Positions 39,423 through 47,445 of a stretch of 47,677 nucleotides of DNA are shown here, in pieces. The stretch's first letter is position 1; each line of letters opens with the position of its first letter. Origin of the DNA: Chytriomyces cf. hyalinus JEL632 (taxonomy: Eukaryota > Chytridiomycota > Chytridiomycetes > Chytridiales > Chytriomycetaceae); assembly GCA_025435555.1 (NCBI GenBank), contig JAIWWG010000159.1, positions 1-47,677 on the forward strand, given 5' to 3'. Both the position numbers and the translations under genes were made by a program. The notes beneath the pieces are model-generated. The model was not told the origin of the DNA. It saw only the letters and a list, made by a program, of their open reading frames with translations, and searched no databases.

Positions 39423-41061
39423 TTAGAAGATGCGCCACCAGGGCTTCTCCTCACACACGAACCGGTTTGGCAACACCCCACTCCAAACCCCTTCCAACTT
39501 CTCCTTCCCACCGGGCGACTTTTTCAACCAACACCGTTTCTTTGCATCATGAAACCAACTCACACATTGAGAATAATAAATACACCGCCGCTCGCATTCT
39601 TCAAACGTGGCAGTATTAAAATTCATGAACGTTCGCCCGACACGTTCAACATCCTTGTCTCGAATCGCATCGTCGCGGTCTTGTGGGTTCAAAGAGGGTT
39701 TTTGGAATGCATGGTACATGTGTGCGCTTGGAAGCGCGCGGTTTGGGTGTTTGGTTTGGAAGGATTGTTCAATTTCGTGGATTTGTTTCATTTGGTCCGG
39801 GAGGACGTGGTGGTATGTGAAGGGGACTTCGCATGGGTTTGGACTGAAGATGAAGTTTCCTTGTGGGCTGTTGGTTTTTTGTTACGTTTGTTGAGTGGTT
39901 TTGTTCGTGAAATGATTGATACAAGTGCTCACGGCCATCCGTTTAATCCAGCCAAGTGTTGTAATCGAATATCGGCATCGCGAAGACAAAGCGCCACGCG
40001 GATATCGCCAGCTTTTTTTCGAAAAACAATAAATTAGATGCGTGAATCGGATCGAGTAAAAGGAAACATTTACCCCAGCATCCATTGTATTTCACAATAC
40101 ATTCATCCACAACTTTCAACATGGCTTCAAGAGCACCCCTAGACATGATGATGCCTGCACCGCCTTGAGCAACAAGTGGCGCCTTGAGCGAATCGTCATA
40201 TTCCATCACACCATCGCAACCTCGAAATCGATTTGCTTGTCCGAAATACAGTTTTTGCGATGAATCGTATCGTGAAAGGTATCGTTGAAGGTTGTCTCTG
40301 TGTTTGCGATATTTCTTTCGCCTGAGTTTTTCGAAATGGGCAGGCAGGACGCACTCACAAAAAAACATAAGTATCGTCGTCGATCATCATGAAAAAGTCC
40401 GCGTCAGGGAATTTCTCAAAGAGTAGTCGAAACCCGGGCAAATTCTACCATCGCAGTCAGCGCATATTTCAACAAGACCTGAGGTCGAATGAAAAAGTAC
40501 CTTGTGAGCGTCAGCTCTCCATCCATCGCTGTCAAACCAGCCACTGGTGCTCGTATCGTTACTATTGTGCCCTTGTTCCATACGCCTGACTTTTATGTTT
40601 GCTTTCAAAGTTGTTGCATTAACAAGCCTATTGCTCATTCCTTCGCCCGTCTGAATCACGACACTCTTTCCACTCTCTTCTACCCGCTTTTTTGCCCGTT
40701 CAAACTCGCCCGTGTATACATCCACCATCGTATGCCCACCCTTCGAGACTGCCTCTTTATCCCCAACCAGGACAACATGGACACCGTCCTTCTTGTCCAG
40801 GAACGAGTCTAACTGAGAGTCTACACGGGCATTGAATGTTTCGATACCGCTTTTGAGGGCAATTGCGATTGTTGTTGCGGAATTGGGTTTCGATGTTTTG
40901 AATCGGGAGTTGTTTCTGGTTTGTGCATTGGGTTGGGCGGAGGGGTGGAGTAGCGGGGTTTCAATGATTCCAGAGAGACTGAGGAGGAGGCCGGCACCGG
41001 CGAGCATTGCGAGGAGCGTAAACAGGCGTCGTCGCCGTATTTGTACGCACGTGCGGTTCAT
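39423..41061 (-). CDS. GT31 (Fringe-like) glycosyltransferase with PAN/Apple-like C-terminus (copy 2)
   Basis: Five exons (41061-40501, 40444-40359, 40297-40074, 40011-39933, 39867-39423), 464 residues; exon phases match copy 1 at the last three introns. Signal anchor LFTLLAMLAGAGLLLSLSG. The DDD metal site is at residues 209-211 (FFMMIDDDTYVFL), followed by LYFGQANRFRGCDG, VAQGGAGIIMSRGAL and GDIRVALCLRD. The C-terminus again has a Cys-rich PAN-like segment (TFEECERRCIYYSQCVSWF). Sequence divergence from copy 1 is substantial, so this is an old tandem pair with likely distinct acceptors. Confidence 0.86.
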
Positions 41062-41373
41062 TTTTTTAAATTACAAAAAATAGATTGGGTTTATTATTGG
41101 AACAGCAGTTCATTGCAGCAATGGAGGTATTTCCCCGGTTGGTTCGGTAATGTTTCGGCTGGATGTATTTCTTGGGGGGTTTTCTTCGGGCGTTTCATGC
41201 CCAGATCTGCATTGACATATCGGCCAATATTGACGCCACAGAAATTGAGGCAATAACACGAAACGGCGATGCATTCCTCCGATCGGCGCTTTCTTGGGAC
41301 AAGACTATATAAAGGGGTATAAGTTCAAATACTCCGTCAATTTCACTCTAGAACGGGAAGGACATCAGTAACA

Positions 41374-41568
41374 ATGTGCCTCAACTCTGTGCACTCCATA
41401 TCGCTCTCATACACGGTCGAAGGCAGAAAGAACGCATTCAAGCGCAAGAAGGAACTTGAATTTGGGTTGGATACGATGGTGATGCTGGCGTACATGCGAA
41501 TGTATGATCCAGGAGTGCAAGCGACTCCTCTCATCAGTGCCAGGGTTGATGGCAAGAGTGGACGTTAG
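41374..41568 (+). CDS. Small hypothetical ORF with an upstream TATA box
   Basis: 64 codons (MCLNSVHSISLSYTVEG..., ending ARVDGKSGR). A clean TATATAAAGGGG lies at 41304-41315, about 60 bp before the ATG, which is why it is listed. No family recognised; it could equally be the 5' exon of something larger or chance. Confidence 0.3.
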   Translation: MCLNSVHSISLSYTVEGRKNAFKRKKELEFGLDTMVMLAYMRMYDPGVQATPLISARVDGKSGR

Positions 41569-41593
41569 AGCGTATTCTCTCAGTCTCTCAATG

Positions 41594-41627
41594 CATCTCA
41601 TCTCATCTCATCTCATCTCATCTCATC
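41594..41627. repeat. CATCT pentanucleotide microsatellite
   Basis: About 6.8 perfect copies of CATCT, 34 bp, just outside the left end of the transposon-like unit. Confidence 0.95.
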
Positions 41628-41715
41628 CACCCCAATCGGTGCTGTACTATAGCATCTTTTACCGTAGCAAGCTCTTATTGATAATGGTACACTACGGGGT
41701 GCAAGCATGCGGGTG

Positions 41716-41942
41716 ATTCTTGTGGAAGAATGCCGGAATATTCTTGTGCAAGACAAGAAATGAAATCAATTGACAAGAATTCGAGAATATTCTTGTGCAA
41801 GAATGCGAGACGGGCTGAATTAGTTGACAAGAATCCACACAAATTGATCCACAAGAATGCTGCCGGAATAGATACACAAGAATGTGAGGACGGCTGAATT
41901 AGTTGACAAGAATCCACAGCACAGAAATTGATCCACAGGAAT
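41716..41942. repeat. Left subterminal array, nine 16-bp units
   Basis: Units start at 41716, 41740, 41765, 41789, 41819, 41843, 41868, 41898 and 41927 (spacing 24-30). The outer ones are near-palindromes such as ATTCTTGTGCAAGAAT (41789). The inner ones keep the right half CAAGAAT but have left half ATTGATC or ATTAGTT (ATTGATCCACAAGAAT at 41843). A longer direct repeat, GGCTGAATTAGTTGACAAG onward, occurs twice (about 41814 and 41892). Confidence 0.9.
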
Positions 41943-42782
41943 GCGCACACACGTGAATGAACCCTAACAAGAGAGCAGCAGCTGAATAAAAATGGTCGCT
42001 TTGAACGAAAACGCTGGGAAACGGAGCAACAAGAAGACTGTCAATGAACAATAAAGATGCGACGTGTTTATTTTAACAGAGTTGGCATGGCGTTGAGGTG
42101 AAAATAGAAAAAATAGGAGAATAACTGAATAAAATAGACGAGAATTAAGAATATGAGAACAAAAGAGATGAGGATTCCACACAAGAAGGTTCCATGTGAG
42201 ATGTGGGTGAAAGAACTCACTTCGACACAATTTCGCCAAGAAAGGATTGAGCAATAAAGATGGATTGATACCGGCAATTCCAGCGGCGTGAGATTGCCAA
42301 ACAATGACTTCATATTCCATAGCTGCAGCGTGTGTTCGGAAAGATTGGTGGCTCCGCAAGACGAGGGAAGGGGCTTCGACAGATTACTCCTGGTTCGCTG
42401 CTGCTGCCCTGCAAGCCCAGGTACCCCTCATAAGCAAGCACGCCGCTTCGGCGTGGACTGGACCGAAGATGTGATGATAGCAAGCGCAGATGCAATATGG
42501 CAGAGATTGGAGAGAGATGCTGCCAAAGACGGCCACTCAAACGTCTCCAGGCGCATTGGAGAGGTTTGAGAGGTGTCTTCGGACGGACAGATAGACAGAA
42601 GGAGGTGAATGGATGGATTCGACCAATGGCTTCTCGTCCAGTGAATCTTGAATTTTTTTTATCGACAAAGATTGGCAGCAACAAGCAATTTGACGCGTGC
42701 ACAGATCAAAGAACTTGCACGAAATATTGAACGGTATACAAATGAATAAAGACACTTCAAATTCTTGAAGGAGTGTTCATCA

Positions 42783-43130
42783 ATGTTGTTCATCTCAATT
42801 CTGCTTTCGGGGATTTTTGTGGGATATTTATTTATCAGTTGCGCGTCATACACATCAAATCAAGATGATTCTCCCTTTTTCAGCCAGTATGACCAGTCGA
42901 GCCGATCAGTCCCCTCCCAACACGCCTCCCAACAGGTGAGGCAAGCCCACTCACAGCAATCCGTCAGCATGCAGGTTTGCATCAACAACCTTATCATCAC
43001 TCTGCAAATGCTGAACAGCCCAATCAGCTTTCCCTTCCTTCATTCAGCCTTGTCGCAACCTGACAGTCAAGTCCAGCCACGCAGTTCCTCTGATGAGTAT
43101 GGATTCTCCGCGTATAATGTTACAATGTAA
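42783..43130 (+). CDS. Small ORF inside the transposon-like unit
   Basis: 115 codons from ATG 42783. The first ~25 residues are hydrophobic (LFISILLSGIFVGYLFISC) and could be a signal peptide or anchor; the rest is Ser/Gln rich. No family recognised and no transposase motif. It lies in the interior of the 41690-43928 unit and may be chance. Confidence 0.25.
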   Translation: MLFISILLSGIFVGYLFISCASYTSNQDDSPFFSQYDQSSRSVPSQHASQQVRQAHSQQSVSMQVCINNLIITLQMLNSPISFPFLHSALSQPDSQVQPRSSSDEYGFSAYNVTM

Positions 43131-43552
43131 GGCGTCTCTGTTTTATTAACATCATTTATGAACTGATCTAACATCCGACCCTCTGACTGTCGCAGGCAAC
43201 TGCCAATATAAATTGATTGAACAGCATGTGCCCAGAGATTCTCTCTGCGCTGGAAAAAAGAAGTGAGAAGTCGCCAATTTATTTTATTGCGTTCGAGCCG
43301 ACAATTTAACGCTTCTGGCTGCATCAAACAGCTATCACGCCAAGAACTCCACGCGCGCGAGCATCTCTTCTTAGCGCGGATTCAATGCGCACTGCCGCGC
43401 TGCTCTGCGAACGTCGAGCATCTTTAATTCTTCAATGATTCCTTAATTCACCATTCCTTCCTTTCTGTTCCTCCGCTATTTATCATCAATAAAAAAAGGA
43501 TTTTATTTAATAATTATTAAATTCTGCATTAATTGGCAAGAATACGCGTGAA

Positions 43553-43911
43553 GTCTTGTGGATCAATTTTGTGGTGCTCTTGTGGATCAATTCTGGCAGC
43601 ATTCTTGTAGATCAATTTCTGTGGGATTCTTGTGCAAGATGCTTGTTGAGCATTCTTGCGCAAGCATCGGCAACTGTATTCCTGCACAAGCATGAAATCC
43701 GGATTCTTGTGCAAGAATGTCGGGAAATCCCGATTCTTGTGCAAGAATACCAGTATTCATCCACAAGAATATCGCGCATTCTTGTGGATGAATATCCATA
43801 TTCTTGCACAAGAATTTTCTGCATTCTTGGGCAAGAGGCTTGTTGAGCGCTCTTGTGCAAGAATCCTCGAAATTCATCCACAAGAATTTTTGAGGATTCT
43901 TGTGCAAGAAT
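43553..43911. repeat. Right subterminal array, fifteen 16-bp units
   Basis: Units begin at about 43553, 43577, 43601, 43626, 43652, 43678, 43703, 43733, 43755, 43778, 43800, 43823, 43849, 43872 and 43896; spacing is 22-30 bp, mostly 22-26. Exact ATTCTTGTGCAAGAAT occurs at 43703, 43733 and 43896, and ATTCTTGCACAAGAAT at 43800. ATTCATCCACAAGAAT (43755, 43872) and its exact reverse complement (43778) also occur. The three innermost units carry CTTGTGGATCAAT or close variants, the reverse complement of the inner units of the left array. The near-24-bp period keeps all frames open, producing spurious ORFs. Confidence 0.93.
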
Positions 43912-43928
43912 ATTTATTGCCTGTAGTG

Positions 43929-44828
43929 TAAATATTTGAATATATAAATAAAGAAGCTGTCTGTTAGTGATGAATCACTCCAACGCGTCAATCAAAAATT
44001 GCATCAAATACATTCATGCATGCATGCATCAGCTGAAGTAAGAATGGGAAGAACTGACGTACTCATCTGACATACACACACAGATCTCCAGACATGATCA
44101 TGATGGTGGGTGGACTCCCTTGTTTGTTGAGTTGAATCTTTTTGATTCTTAATGGCGACAATGTTTATTAACACTGACTGCTGTAATAAGGATCCTCATG
44201 TAAACTAGTCGTAAACCTAGAGCGTCTATAATTGGCTTCATGGAGGCATATCGGACATAGAGCTTAGGCCATATCTCACATTAGCAGGTGTCACATTCTA
44301 CTGAAGGAGGCAAGGCTCCACACAGACATCAAGCATTCAGCGGTACCATGGATAAGGTGGAGATCTTCATAGTTAGCCTGTGTGTATGTAGCTAGTACTA
44401 ATATAAAATCTACTTTTCGCGTGTGATTTGCTGGTCGGTCGGTCGGTCGGTCGGTCGGTCGGTCTTCGTGGAAGACTGGAGATGCCAGCGGTTACATTGC
44501 GTGTTACATGGTGTACCTCCTTCGTTGATGCGCACGTACGTTTTTTGATTGGAAAGGTTACGATCAACTGCAACACATTTTTTGTGACTTGTCTTGCTTG
44601 GTGTCGATTCTTGTTTCCAACCGTTGGTGCACCTACCTGCGCATGAATTACATGCCAAATTAAAGACTGCGGTCAGCGCACGCATCGATTCTGATGAGTT
44701 TTATCGATTACTTGAAGCATTTTCCTGCCAGTGCGAAGTTCGCGACCTCGACAAAATGAAAGCGTTTTTCGCACTACTCATGTTGGAACTTTTCAAGTTT
44801 TTGTTGGAGAGAATAGACAGGCAGCAGA
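43929..44828. other. Gene-free stretch with GGTC microsatellite
   Basis: About 900 bp. It contains eight perfect GGTC units (44433-44464) and a CATGCATGCATGCAT run near 44016-44030. No gene, tRNA or recognisable element end was found; the small ORF at 44428-44646 is created by the microsatellite. Confidence 0.5.
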
Positions 44829-45588: not shown

Positions 45589-46188
45589 CTCCCCCTACCC
45601 AGCGACGCTAGTCTCCAACCCCATCGCGGCTCGGAACCTCTCGAACTCGCTTGGTCCTTTTGACTTGGTAAGTCCATCCGCCTTCTGATCTTTGGTAGGT
45701 ATGAACACTAACTCAATGTTATGTTCCTTGATAGCTTCTCTTACGAATGTGGTCTTCCCGAGCATGTGTCTTGTACGGTCGTTGATGATGGCGTTTCTGC
45801 TCGAAGCTATGGCCGCCTGGTTATCCTCATAGATGGTGGTTTTGATACCCGAGACACCCAAATCGGTAAGTAACTCTCTTAGCCACATCACCTCCTTGAT
45901 GACATCTACTAACGCATTTACTTCTGCTTCCATCGATGATAGTGCTACCAACTTCTGTTTCCGGGATCTCCAGCTGACTAGGTTCCCTCCGACGAACACT
46001 GCATGTCCACTCACTCCATATGCTCCCTCGCTGAGATGACTGGCATCGACCCACGCCTCGATTGAGTTCTCCTTTCCGGTCCTGTACGTTAGTTCCAGTC
46101 CTTTTGTGTTCACCAAGTACCCGGTCAATCGTTTCAACGCTATCCAATGTGGTTCTGTTGCTCTTGATGCGAATCGCCCCAGGTAAGC
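45589..46188 (-). pseudogene. Ty1/copia RNase H, 5'-truncated
   Basis: The open frame covers the copia RNase H: ALKRLTGYLVNTKGLEL, YGVSGHAVFVGGNLVSWRSR, KLVALSSMEAEVNAL, IYEDNQAAIASSRN, HMLGKTTFVREAI, then KDQKADGLTKS. Catalytic acidic residues (WVDASH, SSMEAE, YEDNQAA) are present. Nothing upstream: reverse transcriptase, integrase and gag are missing, replaced at 46189 by an LTR-like unit. A stop at 45595 is followed by the purine tract and LTR. Confidence 0.85.
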
Positions 46189-46733: not shown

Positions 46734-46977
46734 TCATATATATTCCAGACAATTACTTTCAACCATCTTTATGCTTGATCAGAGCAAGAATAGTTGAAGT
46801 CATGTAGTGAAATAAGCTATCATCATCTACAAGTCCGCACCCTTCATAGAACACGTGTATTCGTGTATTCATTCTTTGTTATAGTATCTACTAGACGTTT
46901 ACCCTACTCAATGTCATAATTCATGCCCATATGTATTGAGGTTGGTGGAATGGTGAGGTGCATGACTCTTCTTTATC

Positions 46978-47445
46978 TGCAGTAGAGAATAAGAGATGAA
47001 TCAGGGAGACTTAACCTTTATTGATGTTGGAACCACACTCTTTTGGGTTCACAATGATTATGACCAGAGAGAATCTGATCAGGTAACTTAAACAGTGATG
47101 TCAGTATCACTGCTCACTTGCACTATAAGTTCACCAATAGTTTAATACCTTAAACAGTGATGTCAGTATCACTGCTCACTTGCACTATAAGTTCACAAAC
47201 AGAAAAGAGAAAGAAATGGTCCAACTAAATAGGAAAAGGTAGAAGAATGAAAACCAATCAGAATCATCCTGGAAGCATGACAATGGAAGCAGTTTTCCAT
47301 TGTCATGGAAAATCCGAAATTTCTCTCCAGAACTAAAAACAATTTTCCCACTCCTCCAATCACAAGCTGCACACCAATCACTAGTTGCAAGCTTGCCTCC
47401 TTCATCTCCACTCCTCATGACACCTCCAACACTGGTGTCTCAACA
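46978..47445 (-). mobile_element. Second Ty1/copia 3' LTR (about 468 bp, right edge firm, left edge tentative)
   Basis: On the minus strand the LTR starts TGTTGAGACACC directly after the polypurine tract GAAGGGGAG, and the pol stop codon lies inside its first bases. A plausible end is ...CTACTGCA at 46978, after an AATAAA signal about 50 bp earlier. It holds the tandem repeat at 47087-47196. Confidence 0.55.
47087..47196. repeat. 48-bp direct repeat inside the LTR
   Basis: Two identical copies (47087-47134 and 47149-47196), period 62 bp, of a unit containing AAACAGTGATGTCAGTATCA. The unit itself has inverted symmetry (AGTGAT...ATCACT). Its position in U3 suggests a duplicated enhancer. Confidence 0.9.

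Follow-up and report, generated by a model that had tools for sequence, protein, structure and literature searches.

What kind of genetic element is the 2239-bp unit at positions 41690-43928 of contig C67 of Chytriomyces cf. hyalinus JEL632, and what are the regular repeat arrays situated just inside its CACTAC and GTAGTG ends good for? We addressed this question both in the window, by which we mean the whole of contig C67 with its 47,677 bases, and in the entire genome assembly (37.8 Mb; 242 contigs). The explanation that we favor, with a probability of about 86%, is that of a non-autonomous DNA transposon belonging to the CACTA-Mirage-Chapaev (CMC/CMCT) kind, which targets the dinucleotide TA and duplicates it, and whose subterminal dyads would be bound by a dimeric protein encoded by the transposons themselves.

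Structure and borders of the element

Reading of positions 41688-43930 bore out the description given in an earlier note on this DNA, according to which the unit possesses CACTAC/GTAGTG ends that are flanked by TA on both sides. The left end reads CACTACGGG and the right end ATTGCCTGTAGTG (Table 1); the terminal inverted repeat (TIR) proper of the element is about 13 bp long.

Table 1. Features of the transposon-like element in the window (contig C67).
Feature	Position	Strand	Remark
TA, left border	41688..41689		Read directly; target-site duplication inferred from the C12 relative
Left TIR CACTACGGG, shortened	41690..41698	+	63-bp deletion relative to the C15 copy at 41698/41699
Left subterminal dyad array, 9 units	41716..41942	+	Outer units with ATTCTTG/ATTCATC half-sites, inner units with ATTGATC
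Interior without intact gene	41943..43477		Substitution pattern, frame-breaking gaps, Pfam
Interior block aligned with C12	42460..42968	-	62% identity; positions 834-1342 of the C15 element converted to window coordinates
Right subterminal dyad array, 17 units	43478..43911	-	Innermost unit (43478) weak, 50 bp off
Right TIR ATTGCCTGTAGTG	43916..43928	-	One base unlike the C15 copy
TA, right border	43929..43930		Read directly

Further copies of the element in the genome

The best match to the window element is found on contig C15 (2267 bp; 99.8% identity). Since the flanks match as well, with 3109 bp (97.2%) in common on the left and, on the right, 38 bp followed by a 6.1-kb stretch present only in C15 and then 81 bp at 100%, the C15 copy most likely represents this very locus in the other haplotype, the alternative being a segmental duplication. 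The C15 copy comprises 2302 bp and has complete TIRs (CACTACGGGCAAT and ATTGCCCGTAGTG). The 63 bp that the window copy has lost beside its left TIR correspond to two outer array units and half of a third. A relative present on contigs C239 and C160 (99.96% alike) is 87% identical to the window element over the whole match and shares its terminal base in TACACTACGGGCAATAAATATTCTTG. The opposite side of this relative is lost, and the sequence found there resembles positions 46768-47024 of the window. This window segment is 93% identical to the sequence beyond the cut end of the C239 copy. Additional relatives reside on C228/C150 and at C199:797.9-799.3 kb, the latter with decayed tips and without flanking TA. 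A search for the far ends of the C239 and C228 copies did not find them.

When the assembly was searched with TACACTACGGGCAAT (at most one mismatch), nine places were recovered, while the reversed control gave none. Both ends intact together with TA are present at just two independent loci, namely at C67/C15 and in the longer C12 relative described below. Hence, other copies with the same ends exist (C15 with both ends, C239/C160 with one), and the borders at 41690 and 43928 fall on the same bases in the aligned copies, in C15 at both ends and in C239/C160 at one. The proposal that the unit is a transposon was upheld by these copies and their shared borders.

The element itself (window 41690-43965; 99.8% over 2267 bp) is more alike between the likely haplotypes than is its left flank (97.2% over 3109 bp), a difference that could stem from gene conversion or from a different history of this stretch. 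The approximately 6.1 kb beside the element in C15 (C15:28411-34494) are missing from the window contig, and by match coordinates the eight bases TGTCTGTT (window 43958-43965) lie on both sides of them, an arrangement such as would be left if one haplotype had received an insertion that duplicated an 8-bp target. Two other candidates were not counted as further copies: C170:107744-107758 (L045:4742-4759) carries an exact 15-base TIR, yet the 9-kb stretch fetched there contains neither dyads nor a partner end, and L048 (C217) possesses a perfect 23-base inverted repeat together with dyads of a different kind, but lacks CACTAC ends.

The subterminal arrays are built from dyads

Each array unit is a 16-bp dyad consisting of two inverted 7-bp half-sites separated by a 2-bp spacer, and three types of half-sites (ATTCTTG, ATTCATC, and ATTGATC) are present in the arrays of the window element. 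Allowing up to two mismatches, ATTCTTGTGCAAGAAT matched the window at 20 positions, all within 41716-43911, and ATTCTTGTGGATCAAT at ten, all within 41716-43887; in each case 0.09 matches were expected. A scan for two such half-sites with a 2-bp spacer and no more than three mismatches per unit in all detected 26 units in the 2239-bp element (nine on the left, 17 on the right), while 100 mononucleotide shuffles of the element yielded 0.78 units on average and three at most; outside positions 41001-44200, the remaining 44,477 bases of the window contained 27 units. Most steps from one dyad to the next measure 22-26 bp, some 29-30 bp, and a single one 50 bp. This step pattern is kept between relatives: the left arrays of C228/C150 and of C199:797.9-799.3 kb show the same succession of 30, 24, and 25 bp as that of the window element.

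The ATTGATC half-site is confined to the inner units (41843, 41868, and 41927 on the left; 43552, 43576, and 43601 on the right), and it points toward the nearer end in all three units on either side. This placement and facing substantiate the claim that the two arrays are mirror images of each other in orientation and in type order. The description of the arrays as 16-bp units likewise stood, yet it needed amendment insofar as the units are dyads of three half-site types and the left end is damaged.

In the whole assembly, the exact symmetric dyad ATTCTTGYRCAAGAAT occurs at 18 distinct places, 17 of which are located in the ends of these elements, and all 30 places carrying the exact asymmetric dyad ATTCTTGTGGATSAAT were assigned to such ends; the reversed-pattern controls gave no match for either. 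The assignment of the ATTCTTGTGGATSAAT site at C197:131971 was made through an adjoining TIR match, and that of the sites at C199:362602 and C199:362629 solely through the expected far end of the C199 transposase element. A single exact symmetric dyad (C235:92083-92098) lies away from any identified element. Because the dyads are almost confined to one group of transposons, the most plausible reading is that a protein encoded by this group targets them, and the arrays are thus most likely bound by a transposon-coded protein acting as a dimer. The earlier reading of the repeats as binding sites is therefore retained in that the arrays are transposon-specific, as are the subterminal repeats of CACTA elements; the foldback alternative that accompanied it is not needed.

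The interior of the window element looks non-coding

Between the window element and the C239 copy, we counted 118 substitutions, with no excess at third positions in the five longest internal open reading frames, four of which are disrupted by gaps whose lengths are not divisible by three. None of these five frames matched a Pfam family above its curated cut-off (best: SpoIIM; E = 0.0034, below the cut-off). The interior hence looks non-coding, and the claim that the window copy carries no transposase held true. Part of the interior block listed in Table 1 recurs at nine other fetched loci. Six loci (L049-L051, L055-L057) that contain the internal block were rejected as full elements, as no TIR of the present type was found in the fetched stretches. 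L056:1656-1755 displays a perfect 50-bp tandem duplication inside an internal block common to several loci. Outside of the element, the window contains an open reading frame (45595-46137, minus strand) with no Pfam match over a cut-off; we take it to resemble the terminal RNase H part of a copia-type retroelement.

A longer relative carries a transposase-like reading frame

The segment C12:73304-80467 constitutes an element of 7164 bp that is flanked by TA and has the tips CACGGCCGGCAATAA and CACGGCTGGCAATAA (read inward). Its ends are of the form CACGG..CCGTG, its TIR measures about 15 bp, and dyad arrays lie inside both ends. Three collinear segments of the C15 element can be aligned with it: positions 1-255 with one tip (68% identity), positions 834-1342 with the sequence between the C12 reading frame and this same tip, the 3' end of the C12 element (62%), and positions 1935-2302 with the other tip (63%). 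The C12 element carries a transposase-like reading frame of 496 amino acids, and a search of the genome with this protein gave 57 matches, itself included. An end of the same type with adjacent dyads is found at C24:14627, 2.9 kb upstream of one of these matches (3.3 kb in C12), and another at C199:358551, 0.3 kb from a match. Both of these TIRs came from a search with a general TIR pattern and one mismatch allowed, which produced 29 matches in comparison to 23 for the reversed control; single TIR-like matches consequently weigh little, and it is the adjacent dyads that lend weight to the C24 and C199 ends. On C147, a coding match lies at the end of the contig, and about 2 kb further on TACACTACAGGCAATAAA (read inward) equals the 18 bases of the right end of the window element. 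The dyads at the C147 end are of a different type (ACTCATCCACATGAGT): C67 has ATTCTTG/ATTGATC, C12 has ATTCATC-rich dyads, and C147 has ACTCATC.

Aligned fragments of four loci revealed a C(2)C motif in all three loci that cover this part of the protein, an H(3)H motif in three of the four, and a later E in all four. The C12 reading frame contains the H(3)H...E portion; the stretch with C(2)C is missing from it, and L060 is longer there by about 460 bases. The L053 and L060 fragments contain stop codons, and an intact transposase of the C12 subfamily was not seen among the loci read. Accordingly, relatives with such ends close to transposase-like matches, which the earlier note had proposed to look for, do exist (C12, C24, C199, and C147), but an intact transposase was not seen in what was read of them. 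CMCT transposases (PMC12730594) and a fungal CMC element (PMC4592977) are described with this same succession of motifs in those portions of the two reports that we used.

The 496-residue C12 protein matched neither a Pfam family nor, in a sequence search, an entry of the PDB. The strings WNKYESW and TPVEILH...LLG presumably resemble those of fungal tnp2-type transposases. The transposase pieces of L060 had no match in Pfam, and those of L053 a single meaningless one (E = 0.11). The last third of the Plavaka profile PF18759 matched the distant paralog L061 below threshold (E = 0.17). Searched against the whole genome, PF18759 found no match, with its control matching once below the cut-off; the corresponding search with PF02992 was uninformative, as its control remained without a match, too. 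Judged by motifs, ends, and target, the protein most likely fits the CMC/CMCT transposases, with the first two catalytic D residues not placed. A related protein that is 29% identical to the C12 frame is encoded at 32 places (e.g., C199:777531-778313, L061), with the same open frame of 494 amino acids, no stop codon, and nearly all scores identical; a second transposon family has probably undergone a recent burst here.

The target site

A dispersed repeat with no fewer than 35 copies (query positions 85-209; the L042:2189-2313 region and 34 others) surrounds the C12 element. As an empty-site query, we used 400 bases in which both C12 flanks are joined with one TA. This query gave 45 matches, and 34 of them cross the joint by at least four bases. 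The two empty sites of L058 that can be read have no gap at the joint and possess a single dinucleotide (TT and TC, respectively) versus a TA on each side of the C12 element. These paralogous empty sites imply that the C12 insertion added two bases beyond CACGG...CCGTG, and they indicate that it duplicated the 2-bp target TA, on the assumption that the target copy would itself have read TA. For the window copy, a search of the genome found no empty site; judging from its kin and from the TA that flanks the C67/C15 copy on either side, its target duplication is presumably TA as well. The earlier proposal of a TA target is hence indicated by empty sites in the case of C12, and the window copy is consistent with it.

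Relationship to known transposon groups

The published systems are compared here on the basis of portions of the reports cited. CMC/CMCT elements have, in most cases, CA..TG termini, and they create target duplications of 2-5 bp; the elements studied here carry CACTAC..GTAGTG (C67/C15) or CACGG..CCGTG (C12) and a 2-bp TA. EnSpm/CACTA elements proper, of the plant type as well as fungal EnSpm, create 3-bp duplications, from which the 2-bp TA of C12 and the TA on both sides of C67/C15 depart; they also possess subterminal repeat arrays, which are present here (26 dyads versus 0.78 in shuffles). The plant CACTA/En-Spm element Tgmt shares with our elements CACTA-type ends, subterminal arrays, and non-autonomous derivatives (PMC2613891), and its arrays of direct and inverted repeats are cis-acting sites for a TnpA-type protein; it differs in the 3-bp target duplication of plant CACTA elements and in repeats that are asymmetric between the two borders, whereas ours are mirror-ordered dyads (PMC2613891). 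Plavaka elements (PF18759) resemble the present group by the sub-threshold L061 match (E = 0.17) and by the 2-bp duplication of PlavakaA, but they end with TGT..ACA or CATCA..TGATG (PMC12730594), unlike the CACTAC/CACGG ends found here.

CACTA-like elements with TA duplications were named recently, ESTA in 2025 (PMC12730594) and CNEST in 2026 (PMC12810828). CNEST of Cryptococcus neoformans is about 7.2 kb in size, has 33-bp TIRs beginning with CACGG, 2-bp TA duplications, and a CMC supergroup transposase (PMC12810828); by this description it is similar to the C12 relative (7164 bp; CACGG ends; TA), from which it differs in the length of the TIR (33 versus about 15 bp). ESTA, EnSpm-like transposons with TA duplications from rust fungi, are by description alike in the TA duplication, the C(2)C and H(3-4)H motifs, and the CA..TG-type ends typical of the CMCT clade; in distinction, they were named for carriers of TET/JBP genes, although relatives without TET/JBP also exist (PMC12730594). 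The word "subterminal" is absent from both reports (PMC12730594; PMC12810828), which is weak evidence of absence, and the literature searched, as far as its excerpts extend, yielded no account of TA-targeting elements with dyad arrays in mirror order.

The suggestion of the earlier note that the unit is a candidate new family is not supported if a family outside of the known groups is meant, given that transposase-related elements of the same genome share its ends and dyads; the CACTA-Mirage-Chapaev motifs and the TA-duplicating CACTA-like elements published in 2025-2026 (PMC12730594; PMC12810828) also speak against it. It is a new family of the known TA-targeting CACTA-like kind, with ESTA and CNEST compared by description only. 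That these elements form a new lineage of this kind, set apart by long, regularly stepped dyad arrays, mirror-ordered half-site classes, and subfamilies whose TIRs, dyads, and transposases diverged together, is a tentative proposal that we consider somewhat doubtful.

Alternative explanations

Elements of the pogo/Fot1-like Tc1/mariner type duplicate TA, and a non-autonomous member of this type, in which the CACTAC ends would be coincidental, would account for the TA duplication and the short TIRs. The C12 element, however, whose tips and interior align with the window element, contains a reading frame with H(3)H...E and has kin with C(2)C, and this frame matches no DDE family of Pfam; we thus regard a Tc1/mariner origin as extremely unlikely. 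The arrays might instead be sub-repeats of the TIRs of a foldback-type element, acting through hairpins and with no dedicated binding protein. They are indeed inverted copies of each other in part: complementarity amounts to 89% between 47-nt arms at 41835 and 43578, and likewise to 89% between two neighboring 38-nt arms at 43733/43778. Yet the TIR is short (13 bp), the individual units are already dyads whose spacer is always 2 bp long, relatives share the step pattern, and the kinship in tips and interior is with the longer coding C12 element, so that little credence can be given to a foldback mechanism.

We judge it to be just as improbable that the dyads are sites for a host factor involved in transcription or silencing that were picked up by the transposon family. 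The exact symmetric site at C235:92083, away from identified elements, would suit such an origin; set against it, 47 of the 48 distinct exact sites for the two patterns in the 37.8-Mb assembly reside in the ends of these elements, with no site for the reversed controls.

Proposed mechanism and implications

For the CMC/CMCT-type element with transposon-coded binding protein that we favor, we infer binding of this protein, pairing of the ends, and movement in trans. A DDE-type transposase encoded by relatives elsewhere in the genome would mobilize the window element by cutting at the CACTAC tips and inserting at TA. The dyads would be occupied by a dimeric protein that the transposons encode, be it the transposase through its DNA-binding part or an accessory protein of the kind called TnpA in CACTA elements; given the mirror symmetry of the arrays, equivalent complexes would form at both ends and could be paired for excision. 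With its outermost left units gone, the window copy may be less suitable as a substrate than the C15 copy.

A single genome thus presents transposase-related and non-autonomous copies, subfamilies, paralogous empty sites, and candidate binding sites that are nearly exclusive to these elements. The dyads predict what a protein recognizing CACTA-type subterminal repeats outside of plants might look like, namely a dimer contacting inverted 7-bp half-sites across a 2-bp spacer. If the concerted divergence of the subfamilies is true, they would represent a natural experiment in which a transposon-coded dimeric protein has co-evolved with its own arrays.
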